In this document: in pieces, positions 638 through 6,573 of the stretch
Layout of the letters: every line of letters starts with the position of its first letter
Numbering within the stretch: position 1 is the first letter of the stretch
NCBI GenBank assembly: GCA_002069025.1
Contig: MWBK01000080.1
Span: forward strand, 1-6,573
Length of the DNA: 6,573 nt
Direction of reading: 5' to 3'
Source: Bacteroidetes bacterium ADurb.Bin302
GTDB taxonomy: Bacteria > Bacteroidota > Bacteroidia > Bacteroidales > Paludibacteraceae
Position numbers and translations under genes: made by a program
Notes under the pieces: model-generated
What the model was told of the DNA's origin: nothing
Seen by the model: the letters and a program-made list of their open reading frames with translations, nothing else
Databases searched by the model: none

Positions 638-761
638 CTACCTCAAATTATGAACCCAGTCCCAATATCGGGAATGCAATTCAATAAAAACAATCGAAAA
701 CAGAATCCCACCAATGCACCCAATGGTAATAGCAAATAATTGAGAATGCCTGACGGGAATT
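638..761 (-). pseudogene. 3' part of a split small membrane protein gene
   Basis: The frame ending at TAG 640-638 encodes IPVRHSQLF, a hydrophobic helix (AITIGCIGGILFSIVFIEL) and a short aromatic C-terminus (HSRYWDWVHNLR). This looks like a single-pass membrane protein tail. Going upstream the frame runs straight into the left-end hairpin of element A, with no ATG or ribosome binding site. Its N-terminal part is most likely at 2132-2220 on the far side of element A. With 762-2131 removed, the two frames join in phase (Thr-Ala-Ile-Pro). A GTG at 778-776 could restart translation but has no Shine-Dalgarno. Confidence 0.55.
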
Positions 762-805
762 AGTGCCAGAAAGCCCACTTCTTTAGATGTGGGATGAATG
801 GCACT
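762..805 (+). repeat. left-end clamped hairpin of element A
   Basis: A 6-bp outer clamp AGTGCC/GGCACT encloses an 8-bp stem with one T-T mismatch at pair 6 and a TTTA loop. It has the same plan as the left ends of B (1240-1289) and C (3634-3673). Confidence 0.65.
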
Positions 806-814
806 TGTATATTA

Positions 815-846
815 TCTGGCAGAGGTATAATTATATACTTTCCAGA
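815..846 (+). promoter_or_regulatory. hairpin with TATA-like core upstream of the element A ORF
   Basis: TCTGG (815-819) pairs with CCAGA (842-846), and inside them GTATA-ATTA-TATAC (825-838) forms a second stem. The TATAATTATATA core is also a plausible TATA box or -10-like element about 30-40 bases ahead of the ORF at 868. It may be a subterminal transposon hairpin, a promoter, or both. Confidence 0.35.
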
Positions 847-850
847 CAAC

Positions 851-869
851 ATTTAATATAATATTAAAT
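851..869. promoter_or_regulatory. 19-bp perfect palindrome over the start codon
   Basis: ATTTAATAT-A-ATATTAAAT is a perfect inverted repeat (9-bp arms, 1-bp centre) whose right arm overlaps the ATG at 868-870. It may be an operator for the HTH encoded just downstream, or an RNA hairpin masking the start. All-A/T palindromes arise more easily by chance in AT-rich DNA. Confidence 0.35.
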
Positions 870-1002
870 GCAACATATAACAATGGTTTCAAAACTATCT
901 GATGCTGATAAATTAGAATGTGTTAAATTATACAATGAAGGGAAATCATATAAAGAAATTTCACAAATGTATAATGTATCAACACAAGCAATATGGGAAA
1001 TA
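868..1002 (+). pseudogene. N-terminal HTH segment of split homing endonuclease
   Basis: ATG 868 (or ATG 883) opens a frame with a helix-turn-helix: LSDADKLECVKLYNEGKSY, then KEISQMYNVSTQAIWEI. This is the resolvase/sigma-like HTH often found in front of LAGLIDADG or HNH domains, where it contributes to DNA binding. The frame continues into element B for 20 codons and stops at TAA 1063-1065; those residues (VNYPSLLLC...) are translated hairpin, not protein heritage. The catalytic domain resumes in the same frame at 1294. Joining Ile (1000-1002) to Leu (1294-1296) gives IWEI-LNRRNVKMRS, which has the usual HTH-to-linker spacing. This is therefore the amputated N-terminus of the next gene. Confidence 0.6.
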
Positions 1003-1050
1003 GTGAACTACCCCTCCCTGCTACTATGTAGCGAGGAAGGGGCTTCCTAC
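1003..1050 (-). repeat. right-end hairpin of element B
   Basis: On the minus strand CCCCTTCCT pairs with AGGGAGGGG (one G-U wobble), then after one unpaired C an inner GCTAC-ATA-GTAGC stem closes the loop (hairpin 1011-1042). It is followed by TAGTTCAC (1010-1003), identical to element C at 3484-3477. GGAAG precedes the stem, as in C. Confidence 0.7.
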
Positions 1051-1239
1051 GAGTGTAATCTCTAACGAGATACCTGTTTTTCGTAGATTATCAACAAACT
1101 GTTGATAGCCAGTCCACATGGCATCCTGTGATATCATTATAATCACCAATAATATACAGATCTTCAATTTCATACCTGTAAGGTTTGAGATCTTGTATAA
1201 TTTATATTTATTTTCAAAGAAGATAAATCTTTTGATACA

Positions 1240-1289
1240 AGCGCCTTTCACCCCCACCCTGATACCGAGGATGGGGACTTCCCGGCGCT
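1240..1289 (-). repeat. left-end clamped hairpin of element B
   Basis: Outer clamp AGCGCC/GGCGCT around inner stem CCCCATCCT/AGGGTGGGG (1252-1276). The inner stem arms equal those of the element D hairpin at 6509-6535, so B and D belong to one subfamily. Confidence 0.65.
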
Positions 1290-1308
1290 AAAGTTAAATC
1301 GTAGAAAT

Positions 1309-2115
1309 GTGAAAATGCGTTCTCAACATGAAGTTCAACAAAAATATAGATGTGATGAAACTTATTTTGACAATATAGATTCGGAATCTAAAGCATATTT
1401 CTTTGGTTTATTATATGCTGATGGTTGTAATCTTGATAGTAGAAATAATATCACTTTATCATTACAAGAACAAGATAAACATATTCTTGACACAATGACC
1501 CAACTAATACAACCAGAGAAACCATTACAATTTATTAAACTAAATGATAAAAATCCTAATTGGAAGAATGCATATAGAATTGTTATTGTTAGCAAACATA
1601 TGTGCGATACATTAAACAATTATGGATTAGTTCCTAGAAAATCATTGGTGAAGAAATTCCCTGATATTATACTAAACTCAAGTGAAGATATTATAAAGCA
1701 TTTTATTAGAGGATATTTTGATGGTAACGGATCTATTTCAACATCACAAAAATATATGACTATTTCGTTATCATTTTCATCAACATTAGATATATGTAAT
1801 TTTATTAATAATATTTTTATGCAACATATATCTGGGTTAATTTATAACATTGAAATATCCCATAAAGAAAGGAATGTAAACAATTATAATTTGCGATATT
1901 CATCAAAAGATTGTATAAAAGAGATATATAGATATATGTATGAGAATGCATCTTTCTATTTATATCGCAAAAATGCTGCTTTCAACATAGCATTGCGATC
2001 AGATAGCATTGGTCGATCCATTGCAGAAAGAGATGTAATGGAAGGGAGCACTGATACCCCTAAAATGGAAATGGTTCTTGAAAGCGAATCAACCATAGAA
2101 CCCCACGCACTTTAG
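1309..2115 (+). CDS. LAGLIDADG homing endonuclease with TnpB-like C-terminal tail (N-terminus lost)
   Basis: The core has two LAGLIDADG motifs, FGLLYADG (residues 32-39) and FIRGYFDGNG (132-141), each ending in the acidic metal-binding position. This is a monomeric two-motif endonuclease that would cut a long asymmetric site. The domain ends near residue 223 with the usual YENASFYLYRK. Residues 224-268 (NAAFNIALRSDSIGRSIAER, then a Ser/Thr/Glu-rich stretch to EPHAL) are foreign to the family and resemble the C-terminus of IS605-type TnpB. The stop TAG lies in the loop of the right-end hairpin. The current GTG start has no clear Shine-Dalgarno. The frame is open upstream to 1201 through element B, and the ancestral start was ATG 868 or 883. 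Catalytic residues look intact. Expression after the element B insertion is uncertain. Confidence 0.8.
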   Translation: MKMRSQHEVQQKYRCDETYFDNIDSESKAYFFGLLYADGCNLDSRNNITLSLQEQDKHILDTMTQLIQPEKPLQFIKLNDKNPNWKNAYRIVIVSKHMCDTLNNYGLVPRKSLVKKFPDIILNSSEDIIKHFIRGYFDGNGSISTSQKYMTISLSFSSTLDICNFINNIFMQHISGLIYNIEISHKERNVNNYNLRYSSKDCIKEIYRYMYENASFYLYRKNAAFNIALRSDSIGRSIAERDVMEGSTDTPKMEMVLESESTIEPHAL

Positions 2116-2131
2116 TCGTGGGAGTATGTCA
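1984..2131 (+). ncRNA. possible omega-RNA-like region at the 3' end of element A
   Basis: In TnpB elements the guide RNA overlaps the end of tnpB and stops at the transposon right end. Here the TnpB-like tail, the hairpin with stop codon in the loop (2102-2122) and the right end occupy that position. Whether an RNA is made is not visible from sequence. A guide, if any, would be read from flanking bases after about 2131. Confidence 0.25.
2102..2122 (+). repeat. right-end hairpin of element A
   Basis: CCCACG, a bulged C and AC pair with GT-CGTGGG around a TTTA loop. The endonuclease stop codon TAG begins inside the loop. AGTATGTCA follows and probably marks the element end. Confidence 0.65.
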
Positions 2132-2220
2132 GCAGTTATACCACACATCTTATGCTTACTCTCACAATATGGGTGAGAATCCCAACACACTATACAAGAA
2201 AACATGCGATTAGATATCAT
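2132..2220 (-). pseudogene. 5' part of a split small Cys/membrane protein gene
   Basis: ATG 2220-2218 has GAGG six bases upstream (GAGGGATAGATATG) and encodes MISNRMFSCIVCWDSHPYCE, then SKHKMCGIT: a CxxC followed by Cys at 19 and 26, a likely zinc knuckle. The frame then enters element A, where it would end at a chance TGA inside the transposon tail. The natural continuation is the membrane-helix segment at 638-761, giving a protein of about 70 residues with an N-terminal Cys motif and one transmembrane helix. It starts two bases after the stop of the upstream gene. Confidence 0.6.
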
Positions 2221-3476: not shown

Positions 3477-3600
3477 GTGAACTACCAACAACTAAAGTAG
3501 TTGGCTTCCTAATTCATTGATCTCTGCTTACATCTCATATTTCAGAGGGAGAAGTCTTACGTGATCTCCAAAGGCTTAAATTCAGGCAGTACCTGCCTTA
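3477..3600 (-). ncRNA. possible omega-RNA-like structured region of element C
   Basis: The minus strand carries successive stems AGGCAG/CTGCCT (3598-3584), GGAGA/TCTCC (3569-3548) and the right-end hairpin (3504-3485) across the decayed TnpB tail. That is where a guide-RNA scaffold would lie. Preserved stems beside nonsense codons hint that RNA rather than protein was kept. Transcription is unproven. Confidence 0.3.
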
Positions 3601-3615
3601 CATACTAAATCGTTT

Positions 3616-3625
3616 ATTTTATAAA
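3616..3625 (-). promoter_or_regulatory. TATA-like box inside element C
   Basis: The minus strand reads AATGTTTATAAAATAAAC just inside the left-end hairpin. An archaeal TATA box here would fire leftward through element C towards 3323-3463, so the insertion could supply a promoter to the downstream train. GTTTAT-TTT-ATAAAC (3612-3626) is also palindromic. Confidence 0.3.
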
Positions 3626-3633
3626 CATTTAAT

Positions 3634-3673
3634 CCTGCTGTATCCCACTACTAAAGTAGTGGGTTTTAGCAGG
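3634..3673 (-). repeat. left-end clamped hairpin of element C
   Basis: CCTGCT/AGCAGG clamp enclosing a perfect 8-bp stem with a four-base loop (3644-3663). It could also end transcription from the right. Confidence 0.7.
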
Positions 3674-3678
3674 CAATG

Positions 3679-3706
3679 TTCACATAAAAATAATAAAATA
3701 GAAAAG
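3679..3706 (-). terminator. T-rich transcription terminator
   Basis: Directly after the stop codon of 3707-4102 the minus strand reads CTTTTCTATTTTATTATTTTT, with no stem. This suits archaeal oligo-T termination and marks the end of the right-hand gene train. The hairpin of element C follows and may reinforce it. Confidence 0.4.
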
Positions 3707-4102
3707 TTACTTTGATGCGTTCAAAGCATTTACTGCATCATCGAGAGGCATCATTTGATTACCAATAGTGCATGCGATTTCATCAACCACTGCAATTGTT
3801 AATCCAGATTTATTAAGAACTACATACGCATGATCAAATCTTACCGAGGCAGAACCTTGCTCCGTAATTATGAAATTTTTAGTATTACCACCATCAGATT
3901 CTAATGTTAAGACATACTGATTACTTTTTACACTATATCTTTTAGAGAATAATGAATGATTTAACCGCAATCTTACTAGAACTACCTCACCGTGTAATTC
4001 TATAAACCCTGCAATACTAGATACTGCAAGCTTTTGTTCTTCTTCAATCTCACGAAACAGGAACTTGCCAAAAACCGTATACAGCAAATGATCAATCAAC
4101 AT
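3707..4102 (-). CDS. hypothetical protein, beta-rich
   Basis: 131 residues. A helical start (MLIDHLLYTVFGKFLFREIE) is followed by alternating beta strands (AGFIELHGEVVLVRLRL, NQYVLTLESDG, NFIITEQGSASVRF, AYVVLNKSGLTIAVVDEI) and a short helix at the C-terminus. The strand pattern suggests a small beta-sandwich or barrel; no family recognised. Its ATG lies 7 bases after the stop of the HD-CoaD gene, with GGTGAT directly against the start, closer than usual, so coupling to the upstream gene is likely. It is the last gene before a T-rich terminator. Confidence 0.7.
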   Translation of the reverse strand: MLIDHLLYTVFGKFLFREIEEEQKLAVSSIAGFIELHGEVVLVRLRLNHSLFSKRYSVKSNQYVLTLESDGGNTKNFIITEQGSASVRFDHAYVVLNKSGLTIAVVDEIACTIGNQMMPLDDAVNALNASK

Positions 4103-4109
4103 ATCACCA

Positions 4110-5159
4110 TTATGAGACTACACCATTATATCTATCTGGTATATATTTAAATCCTGCGGTTCGATCATGAATAAACAGATCCCGAACCACTGTGGATGAA
4201 ACATGCGGGTAATTTGTTATGAAATACATATATCCAAAATCTGATTCTTTCAAATCATAATTAACCAATTGCATATTTATTTCATACTCAAGATCATTTC
4301 CATTCCGAAGCCCTCTAACCACGGTAACATACCCATATGGGTAATCAGTCGTTACATGATCTACAAATAATCCTTCGAACTCCCGAACCTCATGATAAGG
4401 GAGGATATCTGCTATTGGAATCATATGAGATGCTGATGCAGGGGTAGCAATAATCACTTTATCAAATACCCGTTCTGCCTGTTCCAACACCGACATGTGC
4501 CCAATATGAAATGGATTAAATGAACCCGCATATACCCCGATAGATGGTATATATCCCTCTACATATTTCCAATATTGATTAATAAATCTTTCATCAAACC
4601 ACCCCGTTCGCTCAAGTAATACAACAAAATCGAGATGTGCTGATACAAAAATATCATATGGTACAAATTGATATTCACGTAAAATTAATTTATAATTCCG
4701 TATCACCCTCCCTATATCCTCTTCAAAAAACGGACGCAAATCACATGATATAAAGAGATCAATCAGTTTACGAGGGGCACCGCTACATTCGCAGGGTAAC
4801 TTAGAGTATAATCGTGGATCTGAATACTTTATGACCTCAAAAACCATCTGTGCAATCTCCGGAGCCATATGCACATTACACTTTTCTATATCTTCTGTGA
4901 ATAAATCTGCGCTATCCCTTTCATTGGTCTCACTCTTTGGGTCATATATTGCATCATGATATAATGCAGCCATATACAGAACGTCTCGCTGCACTGCATT
5001 AATCTCATGCTCATCAGCCATAAGATCAATCATTGAACAAATGGATAAGATATGAGATTTATTATGGTAATACCGAAAGGACTCATCATATCGCCTGTAT
5101 ACCATATCAAAAGTTTCAAAATCTTTAAAGTATGATTTTAATATATGGTATATTTTCAT
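4110..5159 (-). CDS. HD phosphohydrolase - CoaD-like nucleotidyltransferase fusion
   Basis: 349 residues, two domains. Residues about 1-200 are an HD-domain metal phosphohydrolase of the COG4339-like type: YHNKSHI (31-37), ALYHDAIYD (65-73; metal ligands H68, D69), NERDSA (79-84) and a later Asp (D140). Residues about 206-340 match bacterial phosphopantetheine adenylyltransferase (CoaD): GVYAGSFNPFHIGH (208-221) contains the HxGH nucleotide-binding motif, VVRGLRNGNDLEYE (280-293) the RGLRxxxDxEYE motif, and VSSTVVRDL (320-328) the C-terminal SS motif. CoaD transfers AMP from ATP to 4'-phosphopantetheine. The segment holding its KKP lysine and TLEER helix is shortened and changed (PASASHMIPIADILPYHEV), so the substrate may differ. 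ATG overlaps the MT-A70 stop (ATGA), GGAG upstream. Confidence 0.85.
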   Translation of the reverse strand: MKIYHILKSYFKDFETFDMVYRRYDESFRYYHNKSHILSICSMIDLMADEHEINAVQRDVLYMAALYHDAIYDPKSETNERDSADLFTEDIEKCNVHMAPEIAQMVFEVIKYSDPRLYSKLPCECSGAPRKLIDLFISCDLRPFFEEDIGRVIRNYKLILREYQFVPYDIFVSAHLDFVVLLERTGWFDERFINQYWKYVEGYIPSIGVYAGSFNPFHIGHMSVLEQAERVFDKVIIATPASASHMIPIADILPYHEVREFEGLFVDHVTTDYPYGYVTVVRGLRNGNDLEYEINMQLVNYDLKESDFGYMYFITNYPHVSSTVVRDLFIHDRTAGFKYIPDRYNGVVS

Positions 5160-6486: not shown

Positions 6487-6573
6487 CTACCCAATAATAT
6501 GTCAACTACCCCACCCTGCTTACGCGAGGATGGGGCTTGAGGTAGATCGAGGATCTAACTCAATTTAATTAGT
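6482..6573 (-). mobile_element. element D: right end of an IS605-like element, continues beyond window
   Basis: On the minus strand, hairpin CCCCATCCT-C-GC-GTAA-GC-AGGGTGGGG (6535-6509) is followed by TAGTTGAC (6508-6501), and 11 bases later by a second terminal-like TAGTTCAC (6489-6482). The inner stem arms equal those of element B's left end. By analogy with B and C this is the right end, so any tnpB or tnpA would lie past 6573. The duplicate terminal motif may be the scar of an older insertion. Confidence 0.55.
6509..6535 (-). repeat. right-end hairpin of element D
   Basis: Nine-pair stem with one G-U wobble on the minus strand, a bulged C, a GC/GC extension and a GTAA loop. Same wobble position and same bulged C as in element B. 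Confidence 0.65.

Follow-up and report, generated by a model that had tools for sequence, protein, structure and literature searches.

What is a LAGLIDADG endonuclease gene doing in an IS200/IS605-type transposon, in the place where tnpB is expected, with a reading frame that runs on into a TnpB C-terminus, and does the end of the element that it shares still encode a guide-RNA scaffold? These questions are raised by a window of 6,573 bp (that is, the whole stretch of DNA that was analysed), whose ORFs lie mostly on the minus strand and include those for an MT-A70 and a Dam-like methyltransferase and a nucleotidyltransferase-domain protein. The window had no match to phage or plasmid records by megablast. 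Neither tnpA nor a PF07282 protein was found in it when eight of the 19 listed ORFs were scanned, the other 11 being at most 88 aa long. One of its minus-strand proteins (4110-5159) combines an HD-like stretch, below the Pfam cut-off, with a cytidylyltransferase-like domain, and its phage matches are distant ones only. The features discussed here are collected in Table 1.

Table 1. Features of the chimaeric element and its surroundings, in window coordinates
Feature	Position	Strand	Basis
IS200/IS605-type element, inferred full extent	755..2132	+	left: spacing to target; right: shared end GTATGTCAG
Host-side flank TGAC in place of family target TTAC	751..754	+	spacing of 14 nt to left-end pattern
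Left-end hairpin	769..797	+	blastn to tnpB-locus left ends; pattern; DNA fold z -4.1
N-terminal HTH part of endonuclease gene	868..1008	+	in ORF 868-1065; HTH_23 E 2e-6
Insert of approximately 291 nt in endonuclease gene	1009..1299	- (orientation inferred)	boundaries +/- a base; end hairpins; P0001 without counterpart
LAGLIDADG endonuclease body	1309..1971	+	221 codons of 268-aa ORF; PF14528, phrog_4645, P0002 model
Last 47 codons and stop of tnpB, fused in frame	1972..2115	+	47/47 identical to TnpB P0124
Predicted omega-RNA scaffold	1972..2132	+	covariance model from 17 tnpB loci; covariation
Right-end hairpin, tnpB stop codon in loop	2102..2122	+	sequence and folds
Predicted 16-nt guide region	2133..2148	+	outside element; analogy with ISDra2 reRNA (excerpt of PMC8612924)

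The endonuclease gene and its TnpB tail

The 268-aa ORF (1309-2115, plus strand) is composed of a 221-aa LAGLIDADG endonuclease followed in frame by a 47-residue TnpB C-terminus. It matches PF14528 (E 8e-10) and phrog_4645 (E 3e-45), the latter only with residues 4-226 of the ORF and positions 85-301 of the 308 in the profile, so that a front part is missing and a back part has been added. Its GTG start is probably not the native start, and the ORF is part of the gene only: a helix-turn-helix (HTH) part, which corresponds to the N-terminus of the homologue P0001, stands separately in ORF 868-1065, with approximately 291 nt in between. P0001 (313 aa) is uninterrupted and shares 98% identity with the whole window-ORF query, while P0002 (313 aa) is 70% identical to the ORF and P0003 (206 aa) 89% identical over 77% of it. 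In the body, the window differs from P0001 at one of 221 residues and is 66% and 89% identical to P0002 and P0003, respectively.

Two LAGLIDADG stretches were recognized by PF14528, with conserved motifs at approximately aa 75-84 and 176-186 of P0002. The AlphaFold model of P0002, built from a 40-sequence alignment, has a mean pLDDT of 87.7 and a helix across the join (264-274), and its blocks from residue 281 onward average below 50. The TnpB tail is mostly disordered in this model and thus would add little to the protein fold. Among the 50 Foldseek matches listed for the model, which have E values of 3e-6 to 1e-4 and modest TM-scores of 0.33-0.49 by query length, are the LAGLIDADG enzymes PI-SceI, bI3 maturase, I-DmoI, and I-OnuI variants (E 6e-6 to 2e-5). 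No sequence relative was found in the PDB, and neither the window ORF nor P0002 retrieved a relative in viral scans. The endonuclease would presumably home, cutting an allele that lacks it and being copied there.

The stretch that separates the HTH part from the body lies between codons for IWEIVN, which end at 1008, and those for RRNVKM, which begin at 1300. It has a hairpin near each end (z -2.6, with none of 200 shuffles as good, and z -2.0, with 7 of 200), and one of its ends resembles 6496-6538 (79% over 48 nt, E 0.004-0.014) and, by eye, also 3479-3510. In the window copy, the endonuclease gene is split by what is probably a miniature element of the IS605 type. Including it, the window has IS605-like miniature elements or ends in three places, with right ends that resemble one another (GTAGTTCAC / GTAGTTGAC, minus strand): 1009-1299, 3479-3690, and 6496-6573, the last of which runs toward the end of the window.

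The origin of the back part was traced with the last 47 residues of P0002 as query. Of 19 candidates, 16 proteins had an E of at most 10, namely the endonucleases P0001, P0002, and P0003 and 13 TnpBs of 346-353 aa with PF07282, which are 56-91% identical to P0002 over the tail (77-91% for P0121-P0131). One of them, the 347-aa P0124, ends in exactly the 47 residues found in the window. PF07282 (RuvC, zinc-ribbon/TNB) was not found in the 268-aa ORF or in P0001-P0003, in which the TnpB part is the last 47 residues only. The same join, RK followed by NAAFNI, is common to the window, P0001, P0002, and P0003, the bodies of the latter three being 61-89% identical mutually. Its endonuclease side ends in an RK that is invariant in two family alignments, and its TnpB side begins right after the D-x of the D-x-NAAFNI motif, hence without that aspartate, which we take to be catalytic. 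Another homologue, P0004 (265 aa, from a 1,043-nt contig), ends directly after RK, for which the contig edge is a possible cause. In phage and plasmid records, TnpB P0124 has distant matches only (below 60% identity). A degenerate tail pattern had no match in viral contigs and one in genome contigs, in a Mycolicibacter contig whose genome contains one weak TnpB-like stretch (E 2e-4).

The first-pass annotation had placed a homing endonuclease in the position of tnpB and read the end of its frame as a TnpB C-terminus. Both statements were borne out, the first by PF14528, phrog_4645, and the in-frame tail, the second by the 13 PF07282 TnpBs and the identity to P0124; its division of the ORF, endonuclease then tail, stands with lengths of 221 and 47 residues instead of 223 and 45. 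An endonuclease joined to a TnpB tail within the element is an architecture that can be regarded as nearly certain.

Transposon ends and the omega-RNA scaffold

At the left, 768-800 matches the left-end hairpins of viral tnpB loci by blastn, with E values down to 5e-5, and the left-end pattern has a single occurrence in the window, at 769, when both strands are searched. As DNA, this hairpin folds better than 200 of 200 shuffles. The AAAG on its 5' side is presumably guide-like by analogy with IS608. At the right, the hairpin region alone has an ordinary fold (24 of 200 shuffles at least as good), and the alignments listed for the right-end region include over 30 viral tnpB loci. None of these alignments begins before 1971; most begin at 1971-1972 and some further in, for instance L009 at 1998 and L005 at 2006, and they stop at 2132-2139 if they reach the transposon end, with several stopping earlier. 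The two subterminal hairpins belong to one family and stand in the right order and on the right strand. The left end that had been proposed is therefore the hairpin of the same transposon family, and both ends are present as claimed, with bounds better drawn at 755-2132 than at 762-2131.

In 18 of the 19 left ends found by pattern, TTAC, given as the IS608 target in an excerpt of PMC8612924, stands 11-15 nt before the pattern; the window has TGAC. This flank and the interruption of the gene were both absent from the first-pass annotation. Since the endonuclease gene is split and the left target altered, the window copy may be neither active nor mobile. A TnpA-like ORF was seen by eye before tnpB in eight of ten viral relatives inspected, L004 and L011 being without one; the ORF of L002 was identified as a Y1 transposase (NF033573, E 4e-44). 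The distance from the left end to tnpB is 116 nt in L004, and that from the left end to the endonuclease ORF in the window is 99 nt, an L004-like spacing that suggests that the ancestor may already have lacked tnpA. With tnpA not found, the window element is a non-autonomous IS200/IS605 derivative at most. A search for an unfilled site gave no megablast match in phage and plasmid records, and a scan with the neighbouring genes gave one locus, 33% identical. In viral contigs, solo hairpins measuring 52-53 nt from TTAC to GTATGTCAG were also seen (L077, L078, L081, L084, L107, and L110), which consist of the left half of a left end and the right half of a right end and constitute minimal IS605-like elements.

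The right end was then considered as RNA. In ISDra2, the reRNA of approximately 150 nt comprises the tnpB 3' end and the right end, with approximately 16 nt of flank as guide, according to an excerpt of PMC8612924, and TnpB is described in part of PMC10278001 as able to process its own mRNA into omega-RNA. A scaffold alignment was made from 17 hand-chosen viral tnpB right ends, from the NAAFNI codon to the terminal GTATGTCAG, with the window excluded; the window, L049, L069, L071, and L089 were dropped from 22 rows, and longer or more divergent tails (e.g., L017, L019, L021, L028, L033, and L037) were never in the alignment. The consensus structure has 30 pairs, with compensatory double changes in 18 of them. 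Pairing is kept in 96.1% of pairing cells vs. 76.2% in shuffles, for a structure derived from the same 17 rows, and the covariation score of 0.59 compares with 0.19 for shuffled and no more than 0.10 for slid alignments, a comparison in which the same-row structure favours real over slid. The covariance model matches the window at 1972-2132 with 151.6 bits (E 1.7e-38, rough calibration) and zero non-standard pairs marked; elsewhere in the window, the model gives only two weak matches, of 10.8 bits (3635-3826) and 9.5 bits (774-794, in the left-end hairpin). Folded as RNA, the 161-nt tail has a z of -3.6, a value that none of 200 shuffles reached. No part of the scaffold is missing, and it starts close to the endonuclease/TnpB join.

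The earlier proposal that the tail doubles as a guide-RNA scaffold is thus strongly supported as structure by the covariation and the 151.6-bit model match. Comparative sequence analysis predicts a structured RNA that spans the tnpB 3' end and the right end and adjoins a guide in the flank; by analogy with ISDra2, 2133-2148 would be the position of a 16-nt guide.

Other RNA-like matches were recorded in the same searches. A complete scaffold of 128.5 bits is present at L098:5662-5812 without a tnpB frame and with no left end found upstream, possibly a stand-alone guide RNA or a relic. The Rfam model HgcC gave matches of 20.0 and 21.6 bits, below its gathering score of 50, to the window at 2041-2145 and to L010:1576-1676, in the 3' part of the omega-RNA; such a sub-threshold match occurred in one of seven loci tested, and HgcC may be related to the IS605 omega-RNA. 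A tmRNA-like match of 19.9 bits (gathering 47, E 4e-4) was found at L009:3023-3257.

Distribution and history of bodies and tails

A search for LAGLIDADG ORFs followed by this tail, suggested by the first-pass annotation, recovered further cases: the TnpB-tail profile matches P0001, P0002, and P0003 among the 120 homologues listed (464 found), some of the 117 tail-less ones being fragments. Neither tail nor scaffold was present in any of the 80 best viral loci of the endonuclease family, out of 346 confirmed (the highest model score being 16.4 bits, E 0.07). The same annotation would have been contradicted by close homologues carrying the tail outside transposon-like ends; no such case appeared among these 80 viral loci, and for the three tailed homologues the point stands in part, as the left end was verified in the window copy only and one chimaera was compared at the DNA level. 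In four phage relatives with tblastn alignments past residue 240, the C-termini are unrelated to the TnpB tail (best E 0.5) and have no Rfam match at E of at most 0.1. The endonuclease frames of L195 and L196, from two different phages, share the extension KIGEGCDANTE after the RK region, which is another kind of C-terminal extension in the family.

From the transposon side, none of 73 TnpB-relative loci in IMG/VR has an endonuclease of this LAGLIDADG family. Similarly, among 37 distinct elements with the right-end motif, including the window (elements sharing their final 400 nt count as one, which removed L111 and L112), the endonuclease occurs in the window only; of the other 36, four have less than 400 nt upstream and are not judgeable, and 11 have less than 1,400 nt. 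The tail of a second TnpB subfamily, used as query, returned 79 proteins, all with PF07282. The arrangement is rare and, within the searches made, restricted to one TnpB group. In one viral locus, L044:3998-5099, tnpB lies in two overlapping frames (model positions 1-255 and 253-323), which suggests a frameshifted copy.

In several pairs of chimaeras, body and tail have diverged to different extents. Between P0001 and P0002, 88 of 266 residues are different in the body and none of 47 in the tail (Fisher 7e-8); the corresponding counts are 62 of 159 and none of 47 for P0002 and P0003 (Fisher 4e-9), and 18 of 159 and none of 47 for P0001 and P0003 (Fisher 0.015). The window and P0001 depart in the opposite direction, with 1 of 221 body residues and 5 of 47 tail residues different (Fisher 7e-4). 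Between the window and P0002, 145 of 221 body and 42 of 47 tail residues are identical, and between the window and P0003, body (141 of 159) and tail (42 of 47) are equally alike, with no mosaic. As tails and bodies have different histories in this comparison, the tail resembles a module that can be exchanged. The tails of the TnpBs P0121-P0131 are only 77-91% identical to that of P0002, which makes it unlikely that selection by itself has kept those of the chimaeras at 100%. The contrasts in divergence, together with a window tail equal to that of TnpB P0124, suggest tails that are being exchanged and not decaying, and exchange between elements is the simplest reading of the mosaic. Assembly across the repeated tail could mimic such exchange, and could hardly mimic the join itself, because the join recurs with bodies that are 61-89% identical mutually.

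Competing explanations and relation to known elements

The locus is most likely a TnpA-dependent IS605 derivative with an endonuclease and an omega-RNA. In the working model, an endonuclease with an N-terminal HTH would stand in for the body of tnpB, starting shortly after the left end and reaching as far as the RuvC-III region, and the last 161 bp would have been kept as tnpB tail, omega-RNA scaffold, and right end in one. TnpA supplied in trans may move the element via the two hairpins. With the endonuclease gene transcribed through the scaffold and on into the flank, the 3' end of the mRNA would be a guide-bearing omega-RNA, available to the TnpB of a sister element for cutting the empty site, and the endonuclease would provide a second, fixed-target cut favouring the copies that carry the element. 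The model is supported by the tail identity, the right-end alignments from the join onward, the covariation, the unbroken scaffold, the left end with its L004-like spacing, the recurring join, the mosaic, and a tail that would add little to the protein fold, and is weakened by the lack of tnpA and PF07282, the TGAC flank, the split gene, an empty-site search without a find, the window/P0003 pair without mosaic, and the rarity of the arrangement. Taken as a whole, it is narrowly probable. Its core, an endonuclease swapped in with the TnpB tail and transposon end kept, is the interpretation of the first-pass annotation and is supported, the tail being a TnpB C-terminus and the scaffold intact.

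The strongest competitor of this model is a single arrival of a free-standing homing gene in a tnpB element, whose 5' part it deleted; the tail would then survive as a passenger that supplies a stop codon and the ends as relics. Such a passenger would fit a tail that was not found in 117 of the 120 listed homologues (some of them fragments), that is disordered in the P0002 model, and whose place is taken by other kinds of C-terminal extension in phage relatives of the endonuclease; the missing tnpA, the altered left flank, and the split gene of the window copy point the same way. However, all scaffold pairs are kept, identical tails sit on bodies that are 33% divergent, and the window tail is that of TnpB P0124, unlike an unused relic. 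The kept stretch also extends beyond the terminal hairpin to the whole omega-RNA. This account is serious and, on balance, unlikely.

A bolder reading envisages a dual-nuclease mobile element, in which one transcript would hold both a protein-guided endonuclease and the guide-RNA scaffold for a TnpB acting in trans, and in which the endonuclease would spread by converting resident tnpB copies via the left-end and omega-RNA arms; it is put forward as a quite unlikely proposal. Related to it is the suggestion that the endonuclease parasitizes tnpB elements by cutting tnpB copies and converting them, the homology arms being the left end on one side and the omega-RNA/right end on the other. Gene conversion via a right-hand arm would be expected to leave a mosaic like the one observed, but the same pattern could arise from ordinary repeat recombination or from assembly across the 161-nt repeat; this suggestion is very doubtful. 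An assembly artefact, in which endonuclease reads were wrongly joined to a repeated tnpB tail, is hardly credible: the tail does belong to an element that is present as a repeat, and the proteins were predicted from mostly short contigs of public genomes and metagenomes, but three protein clusters drawn from several sources (jgi, lgn, and ena) share the join, with bodies 61-89% identical mutually.

Read as the working model has it, the element can be placed beside known systems. It resembles IS200/IS605 elements with tnpB and a TTAC target as in IS608 in its AAAG and left-end hairpin, its right-end hairpin, its terminal GTATGTCAG, and a tnpB 3' end that serves as omega-RNA, and differs from them in having no tnpA, no TnpB body, a LAGLIDADG endonuclease instead, and TGAC as flank. 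We take it to be comparable to the MITE/PATE-like non-autonomous IS605 derivatives, with which it shares the kept ends and the lack of a transposase; to these it adds, joined to the tnpB tail, a nuclease gene from a different family. Among described chimaeras, the closest is the IStron, as presented in an excerpt of PMC4227781, in which an IS605 part is likewise combined with another mobile module; the module added in the window is an endonuclease gene. A group I intron or IStron was also sought directly and rejected, with no Rfam match over the whole window at the gathering score and no intron in 700-2300 at a relaxed threshold. The phage LAGLIDADG homing genes of phrog_4645 belong to the same endonuclease family, and, unlike the window, none of the best 80 of their 346 viral loci has the TnpB tail or omega-RNA. 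An arrangement of endonuclease and kept TnpB/omega-RNA end was not found described in the open-licence papers searched, and an earlier report is possible.

TnpB has itself been likened to a homing endonuclease in parts of PMC10278001 and PMC11870625. Here, a true homing-type endonuclease occupies the place of TnpB in a transposon, and the guide-RNA scaffold stays. The locus makes it testable whether an omega-RNA is kept for use in trans after the loss of TnpB, and whether retention by a fixed-target cutter and retention by an RNA-guided one can replace or assist each other. If the dual-nuclease proposal were true, the element would parasitize IS605 elements as a hyperparasite and form a bridge between fixed-target and reprogrammable homing. 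It offers a concrete case of a selfish gene exchanging an end module with its host transposon.
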